IMG/VR virus record: IMGVR_UViG_3300034159_000051 | Coordinates: 62,001 to 126,000 of that record | Origin: a virus | Reading direction: 5' to 3' (one strand) | Length of the DNA: 64,000 nt | In this document: positions 3,690 to 62,504 of the stretch, piece after piece | How positions within the stretch are numbered: the stretch's first letter is position 1 | Layout: each line of letters begins with the position of its first letter | Notes under the pieces: model-generated | The model's input: the letters and a program-made list of their open reading frames with translations, nothing else | Databases searched by the model: none | What the model was told of the DNA's origin: nothing | Made by a program: the position numbers and the translations under genes

Positions 3690-4078
3690 GACGCCGCCTT
3701 TCGGTTGTCGCGTAACCGCTTATCGCGCTCTGGGCTTTTGACCCGACCCTGGCCCGTTGGTCCTGGCCGATTATCGACTAAGCGTCGATCGTGATCCGGG
3801 TTTTTAACCCGGCCCTGGCCCGTTGGTCCGGGTCGATTCGTCGCCAAACGCCTGTCGTGCTCCGGGTTCTTGACGCGACCTTGTCCGGTCGGACCCGGTC
3901 GATTCGTCGCTAGACGCCTGTCGCGATCGGTGTCCTTGACACGACCTTGGCCTGTCGGACCCAATCTGTTCGATGCAAGGCGCTTGTCCCGCGAAGGGTC
4001 TTTGACGCGGCCCTGGCCGCCTTGCTTAACAGCAGGCTCATCCGCGGTCGGAGCCTCTTTTTCTTTGGTTTTCGCCAT
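3686..4078 (-). CDS. Tandem-repeat basic protein (five about 21-aa repeats)
   Basis: 130 aa. Start MAKTKEKE at 4078, behind GAGGGATCAAACA; an in-frame ATG five codons earlier lacks a ribosome site. After a short acidic head come five copies of a unit GQGRVK-x-P-x-x-D-x-RL-x-x-NRPGPT. The repeats are Arg/Lys/Gly/Pro rich and probably disordered, so nucleic-acid or scaffold binding is possible. The DNA repeats are also near identical (about 63 bp), so copy number may vary between isolates. Function unknown. Confidence 0.8.
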   Translation of the reverse strand: MAKTKEKEAPTADEPAVKQGGQGRVKDPSRDKRLASNRLGPTGQGRVKDTDRDRRLATNRPGPTGQGRVKNPEHDRRLATNRPGPTGQGRVKNPDHDRRLVDNRPGPTGQGRVKSPERDKRLRDNRKAAS

Positions 4079-16454: not shown

Positions 16455-17153
16455 TTGAGCCAGCATGAATCTCTCACCTTGCTCGATCATGTTGTCGAGC
16501 ACGAGCGCCTTCAGGCCATCATCAACGACCTCAAGGCCGATCAGAAATCCGTCATCAAGGCGGCCCGCGCGCAGGGCTTTGATTCAAAAGGGTTTCGCGA
16601 GGTCATCAAATACTATCGCATGAGCGAAAGCGAGCGCGAGGAGTTTGAGGCCATTCGCGAGCTTATGATGCGCGAAATGGGCTGGCTGGCGGACACGCCA
16701 CTCGGCTCCGCCGCTATCCGCCGCTTTGAGAACGCCTACCTTCCAAAATCGCCTGAGAACGGCGCCAACGGCCATTCTGGGCCGCAGGAAGGCGGAGAAG
16801 CCCCAGAAGGCTCCGACGCCGCCCCGAAGCGTCCGGGCCGCGCACCGGCCGTCCCAAGGCCACCAGAAAAGACTCAAGAGGAAAAGGAGGCTGAACTTAA
16901 GGAAGAGTTCAGATTAGCTCTTGAGGCCGGGACTGAAGCCGGAAAGCAGTGGGTCGAAAACGGGCAAGACCCAAAATATGGCTTTTTAAGCAACCCGTAT
17001 CTTGGGTTTAACCCGTGTCGCCTTGAATGGGCCAAGGGTTGGCGCTCCGCAACGGGAAGCGATGGCATGGAGTTGCCGCCACACCTCAAAAGTAAAAAGA
17101 AACCCAAAAAGAAGAAGGACGACGACAAAAAAGACGGGAAGGATGGGGAATAA
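16455..17153 (+). CDS. GapR-like (DUF2312) DNA-binding protein with basic tail
   Basis: 232 aa, TTG start at 16455 after AAGGGATCAGAACA. The first 60 residues (ERLQAIINDLKADQKSVIKA, GFDSKGFREVIKYYRMS) match the GapR/DUF2312 domain, an alphaproteobacterial DNA-binding fold that clamps overtwisted DNA. A Pro-rich linker follows, then a second helical part and a Lys-rich tail (KKKPKKKKDDDKKDGKDGE). It may organise or relieve torsion on replicating phage DNA. Confidence 0.85.
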   Translation: MSQHESLTLLDHVVEHERLQAIINDLKADQKSVIKAARAQGFDSKGFREVIKYYRMSESEREEFEAIRELMMREMGWLADTPLGSAAIRRFENAYLPKSPENGANGHSGPQEGGEAPEGSDAAPKRPGRAPAVPRPPEKTQEEKEAELKEEFRLALEAGTEAGKQWVENGQDPKYGFLSNPYLGFNPCRLEWAKGWRSATGSDGMELPPHLKSKKKPKKKKDDDKKDGKDGE

Positions 17154-17670: not shown

Positions 17671-17991
17671 ATGACAAAAGAAAAACCAGTGAAGCCGCCG
17701 CGCGGCGTTGTCGCCATCATCGCCGGTCCGGATGGCCACGTTTGGGCGACCGCCAATGATTTCAACGATTACAGCCGAGACCGAGATAGCGAACAGCTCT
17801 GGGCGCAAACAATAAAAGTGAAGGAATTTGTCGCCTTCGAGCTTTTTAATCGGTCATGTAACCAGAATATCATCGGCGTAATTGAAGCGCACGAGCGCGA
17901 GGCCTTTATGCAGAGGCTCATTAGCAAAAGAGGCTTTCGCCTCACCATTCAAGCAATCGGCTACGAGGGATCAGATGACAAGCAATTATAG
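17671..17991 (+). CDS. Hypothetical protein, 106 aa
   Basis: MTKEKPVKPPRGVVAIIAGP; ATG fused to the box AAAGGGATCAG. Overlaps the AAA+ ATPase start by 17 bp. Not recognised. Confidence 0.7.
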   Translation: MTKEKPVKPPRGVVAIIAGPDGHVWATANDFNDYSRDRDSEQLWAQTIKVKEFVAFELFNRSCNQNIIGVIEAHEREAFMQRLISKRGFRLTIQAIGYEGSDDKQL

Positions 17992-18970
17992 GCGACCTAG
18001 CGATCTTCCGGGGCGCTACGCCCCAAGAGGCGGCGCCGCCGACGACAAAAAGACGGCGATGCAGCGCCAAGAAGAAAGAATCAAAGAGATCCTGGGGCCT
18101 TGGTGCACCGTCAAAGACAAGAATCCGCCGCATCCTATTTTCCCGCGCCATGTCCGTGATTCTCTTCAGAAATGGATGATCGAACTCACGCCCGAGGCGG
18201 CGGCCGGACTAAAAGCGCTCAAAACTGAGCCCAGGCGGTCCGCCCTGCTTCACGGGAAACCGGGAACAGGAAAAACCTCTTATACGCACACATTCGCGGC
18301 GCATATGGGGCTTCCCCTGGCGATCGTCGATTCCAACCGCGTCATTGAAAAATGGGTAGGAGAGTCGGCGGCGAACTGCGGGCGTCTCCTCAAGGCGATG
18401 GATAGCGTCTACGATCAATGCCTCATTTTCTTCGATGAGATCGACGCCCTGGCGACGGCGCGAACCGGCGAGGGCGGGGCATCCAGAGAGCGCGAGCAGG
18501 CCATGAACGTTCTCATGACCGGTCTGGAGGATTACAAGGGCATCTGGGTCGCAGCCACCAACCTTGAGTCGAACCTGGACGGCGCATTCTGGCGGCGTTT
18601 CAATTTGCAGGTCCATATTCCGATGCCAGGGCCTGCGGAGCGCTTTGCAATCATCCGAATGTACGCGGAGCCGCTTTATCCAAGCGATGACGCCACCCAG
18701 CTTTTGGTCGACGCCACCGCAAACGCATCGCCGGCGCTCATCAAGGATTTGATCCAAGGCGTGAAACGAAACATCGTTTTGTGGCCGATGATCTACCCAG
18801 GCCGCGAGTTGATCCCATCTGATCTATTTAGGGATGTCATCACCTCCCTCTCTCCGCCTCCAAAACAAGAAAAGCCGCCGCTATGGCTTACGGAGAGCGC
18901 CGTTGACGATCTCGATAGAATGGACTGGCCCTGGCGGGATACGCCGCCCGAAGGAGAAGACGAGGAATGA
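17975..18970 (+). CDS. AAA+ ATPase (Cdc48/FtsH-like module)
   Basis: 331 aa; start MTSNYRRPSDLPGRY at 17975 behind GAGGGATCAG. Walker A HGKPGTGKTSYTH (about residue 88), Walker B LIFFDEIDALAT (about 145), second region GIWVAATNLESNLD with arginine finger FWRRF. C-terminal lid, then an acidic end. No protease domain. Probably remodels a protein or nucleoprotein partner; the co-transcribed genes give no function. Confidence 0.88.
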   Translation: MTSNYRRPSDLPGRYAPRGGAADDKKTAMQRQEERIKEILGPWCTVKDKNPPHPIFPRHVRDSLQKWMIELTPEAAAGLKALKTEPRRSALLHGKPGTGKTSYTHTFAAHMGLPLAIVDSNRVIEKWVGESAANCGRLLKAMDSVYDQCLIFFDEIDALATARTGEGGASREREQAMNVLMTGLEDYKGIWVAATNLESNLDGAFWRRFNLQVHIPMPGPAERFAIIRMYAEPLYPSDDATQLLVDATANASPALIKDLIQGVKRNIVLWPMIYPGRELIPSDLFRDVITSLSPPPKQEKPPLWLTESAVDDLDRMDWPWRDTPPEGEDEE

Positions 18971-19399: not shown

Positions 19400-19465
19400 C
19401 TTTGAAAGAGGGTCGGCCCAGAGAACATATCCATTCATAGGCCGTATTGCGGTTGCCGACTTTCT

Positions 19466-19533
19466 TTCAAAGCCGCGCCGGGGCCAAGCGCTGCCTGTAA
19501 CCCGATACCGGTTTTCTCTGGCGCGGCTTTGAA
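19466..19533 (+). ncRNA. 5'-leader RNA hairpin with 14-bp perfect stem
   Basis: TTCAAAGCCGCGCC (19466-19479) pairs perfectly with GGCGCGGCTTTGAA (19520-19533), enclosing 40 nt that can form an AACC/GGTT inner pairing. It lies in the leader of 19552 and ends about ten bases before its leader box, so it could control access to the ribosome site or be a separate small RNA. It does not fit the 50-nt array consensus. Confidence 0.6.
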
Positions 19534-19551: not shown

Positions 19552-20346
19552 ATGGAACACAACAAAGCAACGGAGACGCCAAGGTTCGCTACGCCTCCGG
19601 TGTTTGCCGTCTCTCAATTCGAAAAACAGCGCATGCTCATCCTCCATGCATGGTATTCCGATTTTATCGCTGAGGGCGGCAAGCCGGTTGAATTTATGCG
19701 CGAGGTTATCGTGCGTATCCACCGCGTTCAGACCGTTTTTGACGGCAAGCTGTCCGTCAACGCGTTGTTCGAACCCATCCCGCCCCGGGCGGATGATAAC
19801 CCCTTCGATTCCTCTTCGGCTGGCCCGGTTTCTGGCGCCGACGGCCACACCACCAACGCCAGCCGATCCCCCAATGAGCAGGGCCGAAAGGATGGCGCCG
19901 AAAGGCTGGTCGCTGATCGCCCTGCTCAGCATGAAAGCGCCTCCGGCCAGGAAGCAGACGCTCAAGGTCGCGAGCCGAGCGCCGGAAGCGCTCCCCAAGA
20001 CGGCGGGCGAGGTCATAATGACCTTGCCGGCAACGGCCGCCACGTTAGCGCCTCGCCCGTCCGTCGAAACACCGGTCCCAATGAGCTGCAGCGGGAAATC
20101 GCCCGAGAAGTCGCCCAATCGGCCGCCAAGACGATCCTGGAAACATTCCGGTTCGCGAACGGGTCCGCCCTCGGCGAGGTTTATCTTAACGACCTCGAAA
20201 ACTACGAGATGAAAAGCTCCGTTGACGCCTTTGTCGCCCGGCAAATCCGGCTCGCGTTCAAAGGCCACCCAAATTGCCGGGTCAAGGAGCTGCCTCTTGG
20301 GACCATTGAGGCGATCGTCAGCCGAGCCAACAAAGAGGCCGAGTGA
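19552..20346 (+). CDS. Two-domain hypothetical protein with an RNA-array insert as linker
   Basis: 264 aa, ATG 19552 after AAAGGGATCAGA. N-terminal helical domain (about 1-80, VEFMREVIVRIHRVQ) and C-terminal domain (about 175-264, VARQIRLAFKGHPNCRVKEL). The 85-residue linker between them is low complexity (Gly/Ala/Ser/Arg/Asp) because it is translated from four tandem array-type hairpin units (19816-20058). Overlaps the next start by one base. Function unknown; the insert is the notable feature. Confidence 0.75.
   Translation: MEHNKATETPRFATPPVFAVSQFEKQRMLILHAWYSDFIAEGGKPVEFMREVIVRIHRVQTVFDGKLSVNALFEPIPPRADDNPFDSSSAGPVSGADGHTTNASRSPNEQGRKDGAERLVADRPAQHESASGQEADAQGREPSAGSAPQDGGRGHNDLAGNGRHVSASPVRRNTGPNELQREIAREVAQSAAKTILETFRFANGSALGEVYLNDLENYEMKSSVDAFVARQIRLAFKGHPNCRVKELPLGTIEAIVSRANKEAE
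19816..20058 (+). repeat. Four array-type hairpin units inside a coding region
   Basis: Unit a 19816-19866 (stem TCGGCTGGC/GCCAGCCGA, inner GCC-GAC-GGC). Unit b 19876-19927 (GAGCAGGGC/GCCCTGCTC, inner GCC-GAAA-GGC). Unit c 19936-19992 (12-bp stem with one mismatch). Unit d 20005-20058 (GGGCGAGG/CCTCGCCC, inner GCCG-GCAA-CGGC). Linkers 9, 8 and 12 nt, as in the main array. All plus strand and in frame with the host gene. Confidence 0.8.
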
Positions 20347-21209
20347 TGGGCGAGGATATCGAAAGGCTCGTCGAGCAGATCCGCTATTGGCACCGGCAGC
20401 GCTGTTTCGCGATGGAACAGCGCAAGCGATCGGTTTTGGCCACGGCGGCTTTTTTGCGCATCGACCTCGGCTGGAACCCGGACCTTCCTAAAAAAGAGCG
20501 CGACGTCATCTCCGCCAAGGCGCTCGACATGCTTAAGCCGGGCGGCGTCGCCCCAGAACATCCTATGTTCGAAATGATCATGGCCTCCCATGCCGCGCGG
20601 GCGCCGTTTCTCGGCGTAGAGACAAAGGCGACGAAACAAATGGAAGCGCTCGCCAAGACGTTGCCGGTCTGGAACGCATGGGCGCGCGACGTCCGGGCGT
20701 TCGGCCCGCGATCGCTTGCCGTCATTGTCGGAGAGGCTGGAGACATTGGCTCCTACAGCACGCATTCGAAGCTTTGGAAACGCATGGGCCTCGCCGTCAT
20801 CAACGGCGTGCGGCAGGGCGGCCTGAAAAAGACGGCCAAAGCCTCGGAATGGATCGAGCACGGCTACAACGCCAAGCGCCGCGCATCGTCCTTTGTGATC
20901 GGAGATTGCCTTGTGAAGCAGGGCGCGGAGTTCCGCGAAGTCTATCTCGCCAGGAAGGAATATGAGCGCGCCAAGGCCATCGAGCGCGGTCTGATCGTTG
21001 CGCCGGCCGCCAAGATCCCAAAAGGCCAGGAGGAGCATTACATCTCCGACGGCCACATCCATAAGCGCAGCCAGCGCTACATGGAAAAGAAGCTCCTGCG
21101 CCGGTTATGGCAGGAATGGCGGAAGATCGGCAGGGAGGACATGACCCAACCTGGAGACGCCGACATCCCGCCGCTCGCTATGGAGCGCGTTAACGAGATC
21201 GCCGCATGA
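20346..21209 (+). CDS. Protein with IS110-type Transposase_20-like domain
   Basis: 287 aa, ATG 20346 directly after the previous stop. The middle (FGPRSLAVIVGEAGDIGSYS, KLWKRMGLAV, then RASSFVIGDCLVKQ) resembles the helix-hairpin-helix C-terminal domain of IS110/IS116/IS902 transposases. The N-terminal DEDD/RuvC domain is absent, so it is not a transposase. Conserved fold could bind DNA or RNA. Its stop lies six bases before the first array unit, so it may be co-transcribed with the array. Match is by eye and moderate. Confidence 0.65.
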   Translation: MGEDIERLVEQIRYWHRQRCFAMEQRKRSVLATAAFLRIDLGWNPDLPKKERDVISAKALDMLKPGGVAPEHPMFEMIMASHAARAPFLGVETKATKQMEALAKTLPVWNAWARDVRAFGPRSLAVIVGEAGDIGSYSTHSKLWKRMGLAVINGVRQGGLKKTAKASEWIEHGYNAKRRASSFVIGDCLVKQGAEFREVYLARKEYERAKAIERGLIVAPAAKIPKGQEEHYISDGHIHKRSQRYMEKKLLRRLWQEWRKIGREDMTQPGDADIPPLAMERVNEIAA

Positions 21210-21215
21210 GCGGCG

Positions 21216-22558
21216 CGCGGGAGGCCAGTTCAGCTACGCCGAGCGGCCGCTTGGTTATCGCCTCCCGCGACTCGGTTAAGCAGGGCCAGCGTACTGACGC
21301 CGAGAGGCTGGTTATGGATCGCCCTGCTTTCGAATCAGGAGAGGCCATTGGCTAAGAGCCGCAAGGACATACTGCATCCGCCTCTCCTTTCCTTTTTCTC
21401 GGGTCACAGCAAACGAGCCGATAGGCCACGTCAACCTTTCCCGAGAATCCGGTTAAGCAGGGCCTTGCCAATAGATCCGAAAGGCCATGGTCCGGACGCC
21501 CTGCTTTCCCTTTTGCGAGGCCCAACACCAGCCGCCGAAAGGCCATCCTTTCTGCGCCTCGCAATCCCTTTTCCTTGGGCCAATACGTTCGCGCGAAAGC
21601 CAAGCTCGCATCGCCCAAGGTTCCCACTTTGCGAGGCCAAACTCGCGCTGCCGAAAGGCCATGGTTTCAGCACCTCGCAATCCCCTATGGGCGGGTCCAA
21701 GTCTCGTCGCCGCAAGGCCGAGGACCGAATTCCCGCCCAACCCAACGACGGAAGGCCAGCGATCGCGCTCCATCGAAGGTCATCGAATTGGCGCCTTCCG
21801 TCCCCCTCATTCAAAGTTTGCCGGGCCATTCATGAATTGCCGCACAGCCAAAGAGCTAACGCCCGGCGCCTTCTTTGTAGGGCCAGAACTATCGCGCCGG
21901 AAGGCCGCGTCGACTCTGCCCTGCAAAACTATTTCGCGAGGCCAGCTAGCGATTGGCGAAAGCCCAAACCAAAAACGCCTCGCGATCCTCAACGACGGAA
22001 GGCCATATTACGCGCGCGCTACAGCGCCATGGACTTTTCGCCTTCCGTCTTTCTATTCAGAGTTTGCCAGGACAGCCTTCTAATGCCTAACGGCCACCCC
22101 TGCTTTTCCTGGCGCTCTTCACAAGAGTGGTCCCGTAGCTCAACTGGACAGAGCGCCAGCCTTCTAAGCTGGGTGTTGGGGGTTCAAGTCCCTCCGGGAT
22201 CGCCAACCCTTTGCCGGGCCGGATTACTATCGCCGCAAGGCTATCCACGAAGCGCCCGGCGATCCCTTTGCGAGACCTCCATACGGATGCCGAAAGGCCA
22301 AAAATGGGACGTCTCGCATCCCTACAGCCCGGCCACCTCCTGCGCGCCGAGAGGTCAGTCAAACCACGCCGGGCTACTTCTTGCAGGGCCAAATCAGATG
22401 CGTCGAGAGTCCATTTTTCCGGCCGCCCTGCATCCTATCCGCTTCGGCGGGCGCGCGGCCGCGGATGGAAAGTCGAAAGGCCGCCCTTGTCTTGCCGCGC
22501 GCAACCCTTTGCCGGGCCACTGCCTAAGCGCCGAAAGGTCAGGTTATCACTGCCCGGC
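21216..22558 (+). ncRNA. Array of 21 about 50-nt structured RNA units plus an embedded tRNA
   Basis: Units (outer-stem to outer-stem): 21216-21269, 21279-21328, 21337-21388, 21396-21447, 21456-21505, 21513-21564, 21573-21620, 21629-21680, 21688-21739, 21747-21802, 21820-21867, 21875-21926, 21934-21985, 21994-22049, 22066-22113, [tRNA 22129-22205], 22213-22260, 22269-22318, 22326-22375, 22382-22432, 22451-22502, 22511-22558. Each has a 7-11 bp outer stem that changes between units while pairing is kept (for example CGCGGGAGGC/GCCTCCCGCG, AGCAGGGC/GCCCTGCT, TTGCGAGGC/GCCTCGCAA), then usually CA, about 10 nt, an inner GCC-GNRA-GGC hairpin, CA and about 10 nt. The inner stem also covaries (GGC-GAAA-GCC at 21955). 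Linkers are 6-9 nt, sometimes 15-18. No family recognised. Confidence 0.85.
22129..22205 (+). tRNA. tRNA-Arg (TCT)
   Basis: 77 nt with encoded CCA. Acceptor GGTCCCG/CGGGATC (one G.T), anticodon stem CCAGC/GCTGG, loop CTTCTAA with anticodon TCT at 22163-22165, T loop TTCAAGT. It takes the place of one array unit: 15 nt after the previous unit and 7 nt before the next. Reads AGA, a rare codon in GC-rich alphaproteobacteria. Confidence 0.95.
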
Positions 22559-22583
22559 GATTCATTTACAAGGATGCGATTTC

Positions 22584-22883
22584 TTGAACGACTTTCCGAA
22601 AGCTCTCAATGAATGGCAATCCAAGCTCTACGATCTCGGATACCCGGGGCCTTATGAAGCGGGATCGATGATGATTGCCGCTACGCGAAAAAGAAGAATC
22701 GATAATTTTAGCCTTGTTAGATATTCCCCCAGGGACTGGCATGCCGAAGTAACATTCAAGCCCGACCAAAGGCCGGCAACTGTTGATCACCCTTATGGCT
22801 CCCTTGAGGGAAAGGGCAAGACCCCAGAAGAAGCCGTCGCAAATCTCATGATTGCGCATCCTGAACTTTGGCGGGTAGCATAA
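22584..22883 (+). CDS. Small protein inside the RNA array, 99 aa, TTG start
   Basis: TTG 22584 with AAGGA ten bases upstream begins LNDFPKALNEWQSKLYDLG; the product continues through SPRDWHAEVTFKPDQRP to stop 22883. A 511-codon open frame extends upstream to 21348 but that part is translated array and is not a gene. The compact fold-like sequence and ribosome site support a real gene interrupting the array. Function unknown. Confidence 0.65.
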   Translation: MNDFPKALNEWQSKLYDLGYPGPYEAGSMMIAATRKRRIDNFSLVRYSPRDWHAEVTFKPDQRPATVDHPYGSLEGKGKTPEEAVANLMIAHPELWRVA

Positions 22884-22893
22884 TGCATCCTCT

Positions 22894-23195
22894 TTGCGAG
22901 GCCCATGAACTGGAGCCGATCGGCCTCATATGATTCGCCTTGCAATCCGAACGACGAAAGGCCATCCGACCTACGCCGAAAGGCTAGTTTGTAATCGCCT
23001 TCCGTCACCCCTTCCGCCTCTGGCGGGCGCGCGGCCATACGGCCATAGCCGCAAGGCCACTGCAGCGTCGCCGCGCGCAAAGTTTGTCTGGCCTCCATGC
23101 GGACGCCGAAGGCCAAGCGTATAGCGCCAGACAAACCCATTCCGACGGGCCATGGGAGTCTCGCCGAAAGGTCGTTCTTCAGACGCCCGTCGGAA
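22894..23195 (+). ncRNA. Second segment of the RNA array, five units
   Basis: Units 22894-22945, 22953-23006, 23027-23078, 23082-23136 and 23140-23195. Outer stems include TTGCGAGGC/GCCTTGCAA (G.T pair retained), GCGCGCGGC/GCCGCGCGC, GTTTGTCTGGC/GCCAGACAAAC and TTCCGACGGGC/GCCCGTCGGAA. Inner hairpins GCC-GATC-GGC, GCC-GAAA-GGC, GCC-GCAA-GGC, GCC-GAA-GGC and GCC-GAAA-GGT. The last two units have 11-bp stems and only 3-nt linkers. Several stems repeat those of the first segment, pointing to duplication. Confidence 0.82.
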
Positions 23196-61784: not shown

Positions 61785-62504
61785 TCATGGTCGCCAGTTC
61801 CAGACTGGAACATCTGAAACGGCGCCGGTCACATCAGGCAAATACTTTCCATCCGCTTTGCTTGGGCGAACCCATTTTACGATGAAGTCGAACTCGCCTT
61901 TGCGCTCGACTCGCCAGACGGCGCCTTCCGGGTCGACGCAGCCATGATCCCCGTTCCCATGGAGCGCCATTGCTTCTGCAACTGATATTGGCCCGCCAAC
62001 CGAAAGTAGCTTTGGCATTGCTATCCCGTGCATTAAGCAGCGGTCGCGAAATTCATCGAACGGCTTTCTCTTTTGCTTGACCATCAAATCAAACGCAGCA
62101 AAAGGGCCAAGAGGGAGGCTGTATAGCGTCCCATGCGCCTGTGCGAGCCATTCGCCGACAAGTCGCTCACCGTCGGAAAGAACATCGCGCCAAAACTCTT
62201 CTCGCTGGCGCACCCAATATGCGAACAGCTGATGTTGTTCGTACTTGCTCGATTGAGCAAGATACCCGGCGCGCCCAAGCGCGTAAATGCTATCGCCGAC
62301 GCGCGCTATACCAACATTCGAGCCGTCCAGCTTTTCTGTGACGATAATGCGATCATGCTTATCGCGCGCCTTTTCGGTCGCGATGCGCTGCTGGCCTTCA
62401 TGACAGGCATGATCGCCCGGACCCATACGGGAACAAGGTAGATGTGGGATTGAGCCATAGTTCTTTCTGTCGAGTGGCTTAGCCGCACTCCATGTCGTCG
62501 ACAT
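61785..62504 (-). CDS. Rnl2-type RNA ligase
   Basis: 239 aa; start MSTTWSAAKPLDRKNYGSIP at 62504 behind AAAAGGGATCAGATCGAA. Motif I IVTEKLDGSNVGIAR (adenylated Lys), motif III LGRAGYLAQ, motif IV VGEWLAQAHGTLYSLPLGPF, motif V EFDFIVKWVRPS. T4 Rnl2-like ligases seal nicks in tRNA and other RNA. Fits the RNA-repair theme with the RlaP-like gene and TROVE. Confidence 0.9.
   Translation of the reverse strand: MSTTWSAAKPLDRKNYGSIPHLPCSRMGPGDHACHEGQQRIATEKARDKHDRIIVTEKLDGSNVGIARVGDSIYALGRAGYLAQSSKYEQHQLFAYWVRQREEFWRDVLSDGERLVGEWLAQAHGTLYSLPLGPFAAFDLMVKQKRKPFDEFRDRCLMHGIAMPKLLSVGGPISVAEAMALHGNGDHGCVDPEGAVWRVERKGEFDFIVKWVRPSKADGKYLPDVTGAVSDVPVWNWRP

Follow-up and report, generated by a model that had tools for sequence, protein, structure and literature searches.

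A stretch of 64,000 nucleotides (nt) of viral DNA, positions 62,001 to 126,000 of the IMG/VR virus record IMGVR_UViG_3300034159_000051, was analysed at its full length and is called the window below. It carries four hairpin units in frame inside an open reading frame (ORF) at 19552-20346, directly upstream of a gene for a TasA protein. The four units were identified, with a probability of about 0.83, as guide-RNA units with two spacers each, belonging to a phage TIGR-TasA system of the stem-loop type and placed in frame inside the upstream partner gene of tasA. Several features of the sequences argue for this identification: the units share one grammar, lie next to tasA and take the place of a protein linker; coding placement recurs in dozens of related viruses and prophages; and frame and hairpins are both kept while the spacers turn over. 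A dual role of the mRNA, as message and as precursor of guide RNAs, is probable, its translation and processing being read from these patterns.

Hairpin units inside the partner gene

The in-frame units occupied 19816-20065 (Table 1). The grammar was common to all four: a variable palindromic arm, GGC (or GGT), C, 11 nt, an inner hairpin, 11 nt, and a complementary arm starting with GCC. The outer arms were 9–15 base pairs long, two 11-nt segments flanked each inner hairpin, and the gaps between units were 6–10 nt. The original prediction, made from the letters of the window, had placed four units with a shared outer-stem/inner-GNRA plan in this ORF. The presence of four in-frame units was confirmed. 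The common plan held in all four units, but a true GNRA inner loop was found in only two of them: GAAA in unit 2 and GCAA in unit 4. Unit 1 had a GAC triloop, and the inner loop of unit 3 was degenerate (GCTCAAGGT). In every unit, 11 nt separated GGCC and GCC, that is, CCx-9-YG. The boxes were plain in relatives such as locus L005 (C-CA, 9 nt, TG, loop, CCA, 9 nt, T-G); the 11 nt of the window are therefore best read as a box position, a 9-nt spacer and a box position.

The strict scanner superseded a version with another inner-box rule, which lost real units and gave minus-strand noise. It found 20 units on the + strand of the window, all within 19816-23195 (four in the ORF and 16 past the next gene), and two on the minus strand. 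The rest of the 129-kb record gave one lone + match and two minus matches, all of background type. When the synonymous codons of the gene were permuted with protein and codon usage kept, a mean of 0.10 units and a maximum of 2 remained in 200 trials, compared with the four observed. The hairpins are thus no by-product of the protein. Folding of the 301-nt segment gave z = −3.2. In segments picked by the inner motif only, at least eight of nine outer-arm pairs were present in 15 of 15 cases from the array region, and the mean for such segments elsewhere in the window was 4.0 of nine. The arms of the array-region segments used several pair types at many positions. Chance origin of the four units was excluded. 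Tandem Repeats Finder did not detect the array, because its spacers and arms vary, and the only matches in an Rfam search were tRNAs.

The tasA gene and its upstream partner

The gene at 20346-21209 was identified as TasA by profile and predicted fold. A profile of the window TasA and three relatives matched the TasR structure PDB 9MTY (E 1.1e-12). The AlphaFold2 model of TasA, with a mean predicted local distance difference test score (pLDDT) of 92.7, matched TasR 9MTY and TasH structures with a Foldseek probability of 1.00, and IS110-type proteins more weakly. The predicted model started with coiled-coil helices, and no RuvC/DEDD fold was seen in its 287 residues. An IS110 transposase was considered and rejected, since the DEDD domain that stands N-terminal to the Nop-like domain in such proteins was not seen in the predicted fold of TasA. 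A plasmid search gave no TasA match.

Two array types are described in the main text of Faure et al. (Science 2025, PMC12045711). The second type consists of stem-loops in which variable palindromic sequences replace the edge repeats, with two 8–12 nt spacers, box C and box D. It occurs with a TasA that has no nuclease, and its array was shown there to be processed into single-unit RNAs. Judged by sequence, the window units fit that description: in both systems a Nop-domain TasA without nuclease goes with subarrays near tasA, edge repeats are replaced by variable palindromic arms, and the units combine two spacers, box C and box D with a conserved inner repeat. In the same main text, arrays are located upstream or downstream of tas genes, whereas the window has units in frame within the partner gene and relatives have them within tasA itself. 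The dual-repeat TIGR arrays that go with TasR, TasH or TasA are similar in that box C (CCA) and box D (UG) flank 9-nt spacers in the units of relatives such as L005. They differ in their constant edge repeat; here each unit has its own palindromic arms. H/ACA-like guides, suggested by the shape of the internal loops, were dropped given the TasA match and the box C/box D grammar. The original prediction that the gene doubles as an RNA source is supported by this assignment, in which the units would be TIGR guide-RNA units within coding sequence.

The host ORF is preceded by AAAGGGATC, which stands about 10 nt ahead of its ATG. AlphaFold2 predicted the helical N-part and the C-domain of the partner protein with confidence, and block pLDDT fell to 41–56 over about residues 81–170. 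The units correspond to residues 89–171 and coincide with this predicted disordered linker; their placement between two structured ends, as originally proposed, was thus supported by the model. No family was found for the partner protein in Pfam or PHROG, the Foldseek search of its model against PDB gave no significant match, and tblastn against phages and a viral contig scan gave no relative.

Relatives of the partner were reached via tasA and synteny, in 56 viral and 13 genome loci. Most of these loci had an ORF of about 150–320 amino acids immediately upstream of tasA, often overlapping the tasA start. Most partner genes were array-free and encoded the helical N-part, a short linker and the C-part in one protein, most clearly in L028–L035. 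The C-part profile of the array-bearing partners matched that of the array-free family with an hhalign probability of 81% (E 1.2e-5). As expected from the original prediction, relatives had another number of units or none. These comparisons indicate that the array takes the place of a flexible linker in a protein family whose other members are array-free. A description of the partner family was not found in the parts of the main text of Faure et al. (PMC12045711) that the analysis covered.

Reading frame and spacer turnover of the arrays

Units were counted with the strict scanner in 52 loci with tasA, some of which are closely related. Among 340 strict units, 27 were in partner ORFs, 139 in N-terminal extensions of TasA, 26 in C-terminal tails of TasA, seven over the Nop domain and 140 outside coding sequence. 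Coding units, one or more, were present in 45 of the 48 unit-bearing loci. The C-terminal tail of TasA past the Nop domain carried units in L005, L009 (up to five), L012 and L047, ending near the stop codon. Units of this grammar also occurred in three actinophage loci. In a Mycobacteroides prophage (L079), two units lay at 2097-2211 in an annotated hypothetical gene of 74 amino acids just before tasA, and this gene may consist of array only. Rhodoplanes elegans (L001, L063 and L064) had the tas locus in duplicate, about 63 kb apart on one contig and without differences over the 2.1 kb compared. This lysogen and that of Mesorhizobium mediterraneum are among those that share the arrangement of the window.

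Alternatively, the units could form a plain non-coding TIGR subarray flanked by a short upstream ORF and a separate short gene for the C-domain; the long ORF would then be open by chance because GC-rich palindromic arrays have few stops. Openness in the window itself allows this: at 0.012 stops per codon in the non-coding arrays of this genome, 83 codons would be open by chance with P about 0.36. A frame of 511 amino acids runs open by chance through the non-coding array and a tRNA, and a second + frame is open for 227 amino acids over the region. Since openness in the window is not significant, the claim of translation rests on the homologues. Besides the two open frames, other results weigh against guide units in coding sequence. 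The counts for N-terminal extensions depend on assumed start codons, and nearly all units of L034 and L016 lay outside coding sequence. The inner hairpin of unit 3 is weak. The spacers had no site with two or fewer mismatches out of 18 across the 129 kb of the phage itself (shuffled pairings gave 0–2). Pairwise BLAST did not join the window's partner to homologues, so the homology of the partner rests on synteny, architecture (structure prediction) and the profile match.

The homologues nevertheless make a non-coding subarray unlikely. In array-free relatives a single protein contains both the N-part and the C-part. Eight array-bearing partner linkers (454 codons) had 0, 5 and 22 stops in frames 0, +1 and +2, that is, none in frame and 27 in the other two (P about 1e-4). 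In many relatives the array is in the N-terminal extension of TasA, where up to ten units run in an open frame from a start overlapping or adjoining the stop of the partner to the Nop domain. The corresponding stops over 3005 codons of such extensions were 4, 48 and 99 (P about 3e-21), and non-coding arrays had 0.020 stops per codon. The four in-frame stops fell in L014, L071 and L004, upstream of plausible starts.

Unit spacing pointed in the same direction. Codon phase was identical in the four units of the window, with spacings of 60, 63 and 66, all multiples of three as in L001, where five units were spaced exactly 66. Spacings in linkers were multiples of three in 12 of 13 cases and in non-coding arrays in 20 of 49 (Fisher P 0.0012). 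The codon phase of box C in coding N-extension units was distributed 57/51/1, so one phase was avoided. A conserved N-terminal peptide (SEICAVVETTTRKR-like) stood ahead of the array in L041, L071 and L004, for which reason translation should begin upstream of the array; the annotated gene start in the Rhizobium phage L004 was also upstream of it.

The change of the arrays was followed in pairs of relatives. L047 and L052 have closely related tasA genes, differing at 57 of 687 Nop-domain sites, and no gaps are needed to align their in-frame arrays. Spacers differed at 78 of 126 sites (62%) and arms at 5 of 142 (4%). Codon changes were 43 non-synonymous and seven synonymous in the array, compared with 10 and 40 in the Nop domain. 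In the partner linkers of L061 and L062, arms and inner loops were largely kept and the spacers were different. Both pairs show selection on RNA structure together with spacer turnover, and the protein segment encoded by the array appears to tolerate nearly any change short of a stop or frame shift. The spacer core of 9 nt equals three codons, so that exchange of spacers leaves the frame unshifted. The case that the original prediction had named as speaking against it, a linker kept as protein with hairpins broken by synonymous changes, is the opposite of what L047 and L052 show, where hairpins stay and the protein changes.

The same comparison bears on two further explanations. If the linker mattered as a protein, for example as a hypervariable binding loop, and the hairpins were a by-product or only slowed the ribosome, mostly non-synonymous changes between homologous arrays would be expected, as in a diversifying segment, and these were found. 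Synonymous shuffling nevertheless destroys the hairpins, the arms of L047 and L052 are nearly invariant though no protein constraint demands that, and units of the same grammar occur in the adjoining non-coding DNA. A role of this kind was regarded as very unlikely.

Rickettsia palindromic elements are palindromic, lie in frame and are tolerated in coding genes, with similar copies across many unrelated genes. The original prediction was reminded of them and suggested that the units can spread as a segment. Mobile elements of this type, inserted in frame, would account for palindromic in-frame units between structured protein parts. The units, however, obey the box C/box D dual-spacer grammar, and none is a copy of another. 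On the + strand of the window they cluster around tasA, with background-type matches elsewhere in the 129-kb record; similar copies in many unrelated genes were seen neither on that strand nor in the rest of the record. Close relatives change their spacers while the units stay in place, and no sign of mobility was found: the spacers of L047 and L052 were replaced in place with no insertion of a unit. Insertion of such elements was therefore considered extremely improbable, and the identification as TIGR guide units in coding sequence is retained.

Table 1. Features of the tas region in the window; the parts of each guide unit are given 5' to 3' and separated by slashes.
Feature	Coordinates	Strand	Details
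Two more unit-like hairpins, 5' leader of partner gene	19401-19532	+	Read from sequence; missed by strict scanner
Host ORF, 264 amino acids, uncharacterised partner gene directly upstream of tasA; stop overlaps tasA start	19552-20346	+	
N-terminal helical part of partner protein, helices at residues 22-73	19552-19815	+	AlphaFold2 block pLDDT up to 90
In-gene guide unit 1	19816-19866	+	TCGGCTGGC / C / CGGTTTCTGGC / GCCGACGGCC / ACACCACCAAC / GCCAGCCGA
In-gene guide unit 2	19875-19928	+	TGAGCAGGGC / C / GAAAGGATGGC / GCCGAAAGGCT / GGTCGCTGATC / GCCCTGCTCA
In-gene guide unit 3, inner hairpin degenerate	19936-19992	+	AGCGCCTCCGGC / C / AGGAAGCAGAC / GCTCAAGGTC / GCGAGCCGAGC / GCCGGAAGCGCT
In-gene guide unit 4, core 20003-20059	19999-20065	+	GACGGCGGGCGAGGT / C / ATAATGACCTT / GCCGGCAACGGCC / GCCACGTTAGC / GCCTCGCCCGTCCGTC
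C-terminal helical domain of partner protein, residues 178-264	20066-20346	+	pLDDT about 78-93; related to C-domain of array-free partners
tasA, 287 amino acids, predicted Nop-domain guide-RNA binding protein without nuclease domain; alternative GTG start 20343	20346-21209	+	PHROG 4285, 2.4e-22
Main stem-loop TIGR array, non-coding; 16 units by strict rule, several more by relaxed rule	21216-23195	+	

The hairpins in the leader of the partner gene are long and resemble further, less canonical units. The main non-coding array is interrupted midway by a tRNA-Arg (tct) gene at 22129-22205, which suggests either an array that belongs to a longer processed transcript or insertion of the tRNA into the array. 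The array is also broken at 22561-22893, where units are few or absent over about 330 nt and the part at about 22590-22880 is array-free; this stretch may hold a small gene, as one ORF there ends at 22883. Upstream of the tas locus, a GapR-like DNA-binding protein (16455-17153) and an AAA ATPase (17882-18970) are encoded. A separate tandem array with a 66-nt period is located at 3732-4019.

Proposed mechanism and significance

One polycistronic partner-tasA mRNA would be translated through the hairpins and give a tolerated disordered linker. The same mRNA, or a fraction of it, would be bound by TasA at the units as they fold, and a host RNase would cut between the units to release guide RNAs. 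Cutting between units by a host RNase is suggested for the stem-loop array studied in Faure et al. (PMC12045711), as described in its main text. Because TasA has no nuclease domain, the guided protein would bind but not cut its DNA target, the two 9-nt spacers of the guide matching opposite strands. Excision of guides destroys the message and lowers translation, so the arrangement should limit itself, and the supply of TasA and guides would be self-limiting.

A broader reading is offered tentatively, at slightly under even odds for all its parts together. Stem-loop TIGR systems would commonly place arrays in coding sequence (partner linker, TasA N-extension or TasA C-tail), spacers would turn over in place under frame constraint, the trade-off between translating and dicing the mRNA would act as feedback on the TasA level, and the upstream partner gene would be a conserved, so far undescribed component of these systems.

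The nearest precedent for a guide derived from the effector's own mRNA is TnpB with its omegaRNA (Nety et al. 2023, PMC10278001). TnpB has one guide scaffold per element, whereas many spacer-bearing units are present here; they sit in disordered linkers and tails, and their spacers change freely. The IS110 bridge RNA is similar in its related Nop-type protein domain and in having two guide segments, placed in internal loops of a hairpin. IS110, in contrast, has a single non-coding RNA, a DEDD transposase domain and recombination activity, none of which is present here. To our knowledge, no other guide-RNA array is translated through many spacers, and no later report of coding TIGR arrays was found in the literature searched.

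The maturation of tigRNA and the change of spacers are left open in the main text of Faure et al. (PMC12045711). The present arrangement would offer a way into the first, since the precursor here would be the mRNA, and close pairs such as L047 and L052, with spacers replaced and arms and frame kept, offer a way into the second. A conserved partner gene of unknown fold adjoining tasA is now named for study. If the identification is true, TIGR arrays may be missed wherever they are hidden under gene annotation, counts of stem-loop TIGR systems probably underestimate their number, and the annotated N-termini and linkers of Tas proteins need to be read again.
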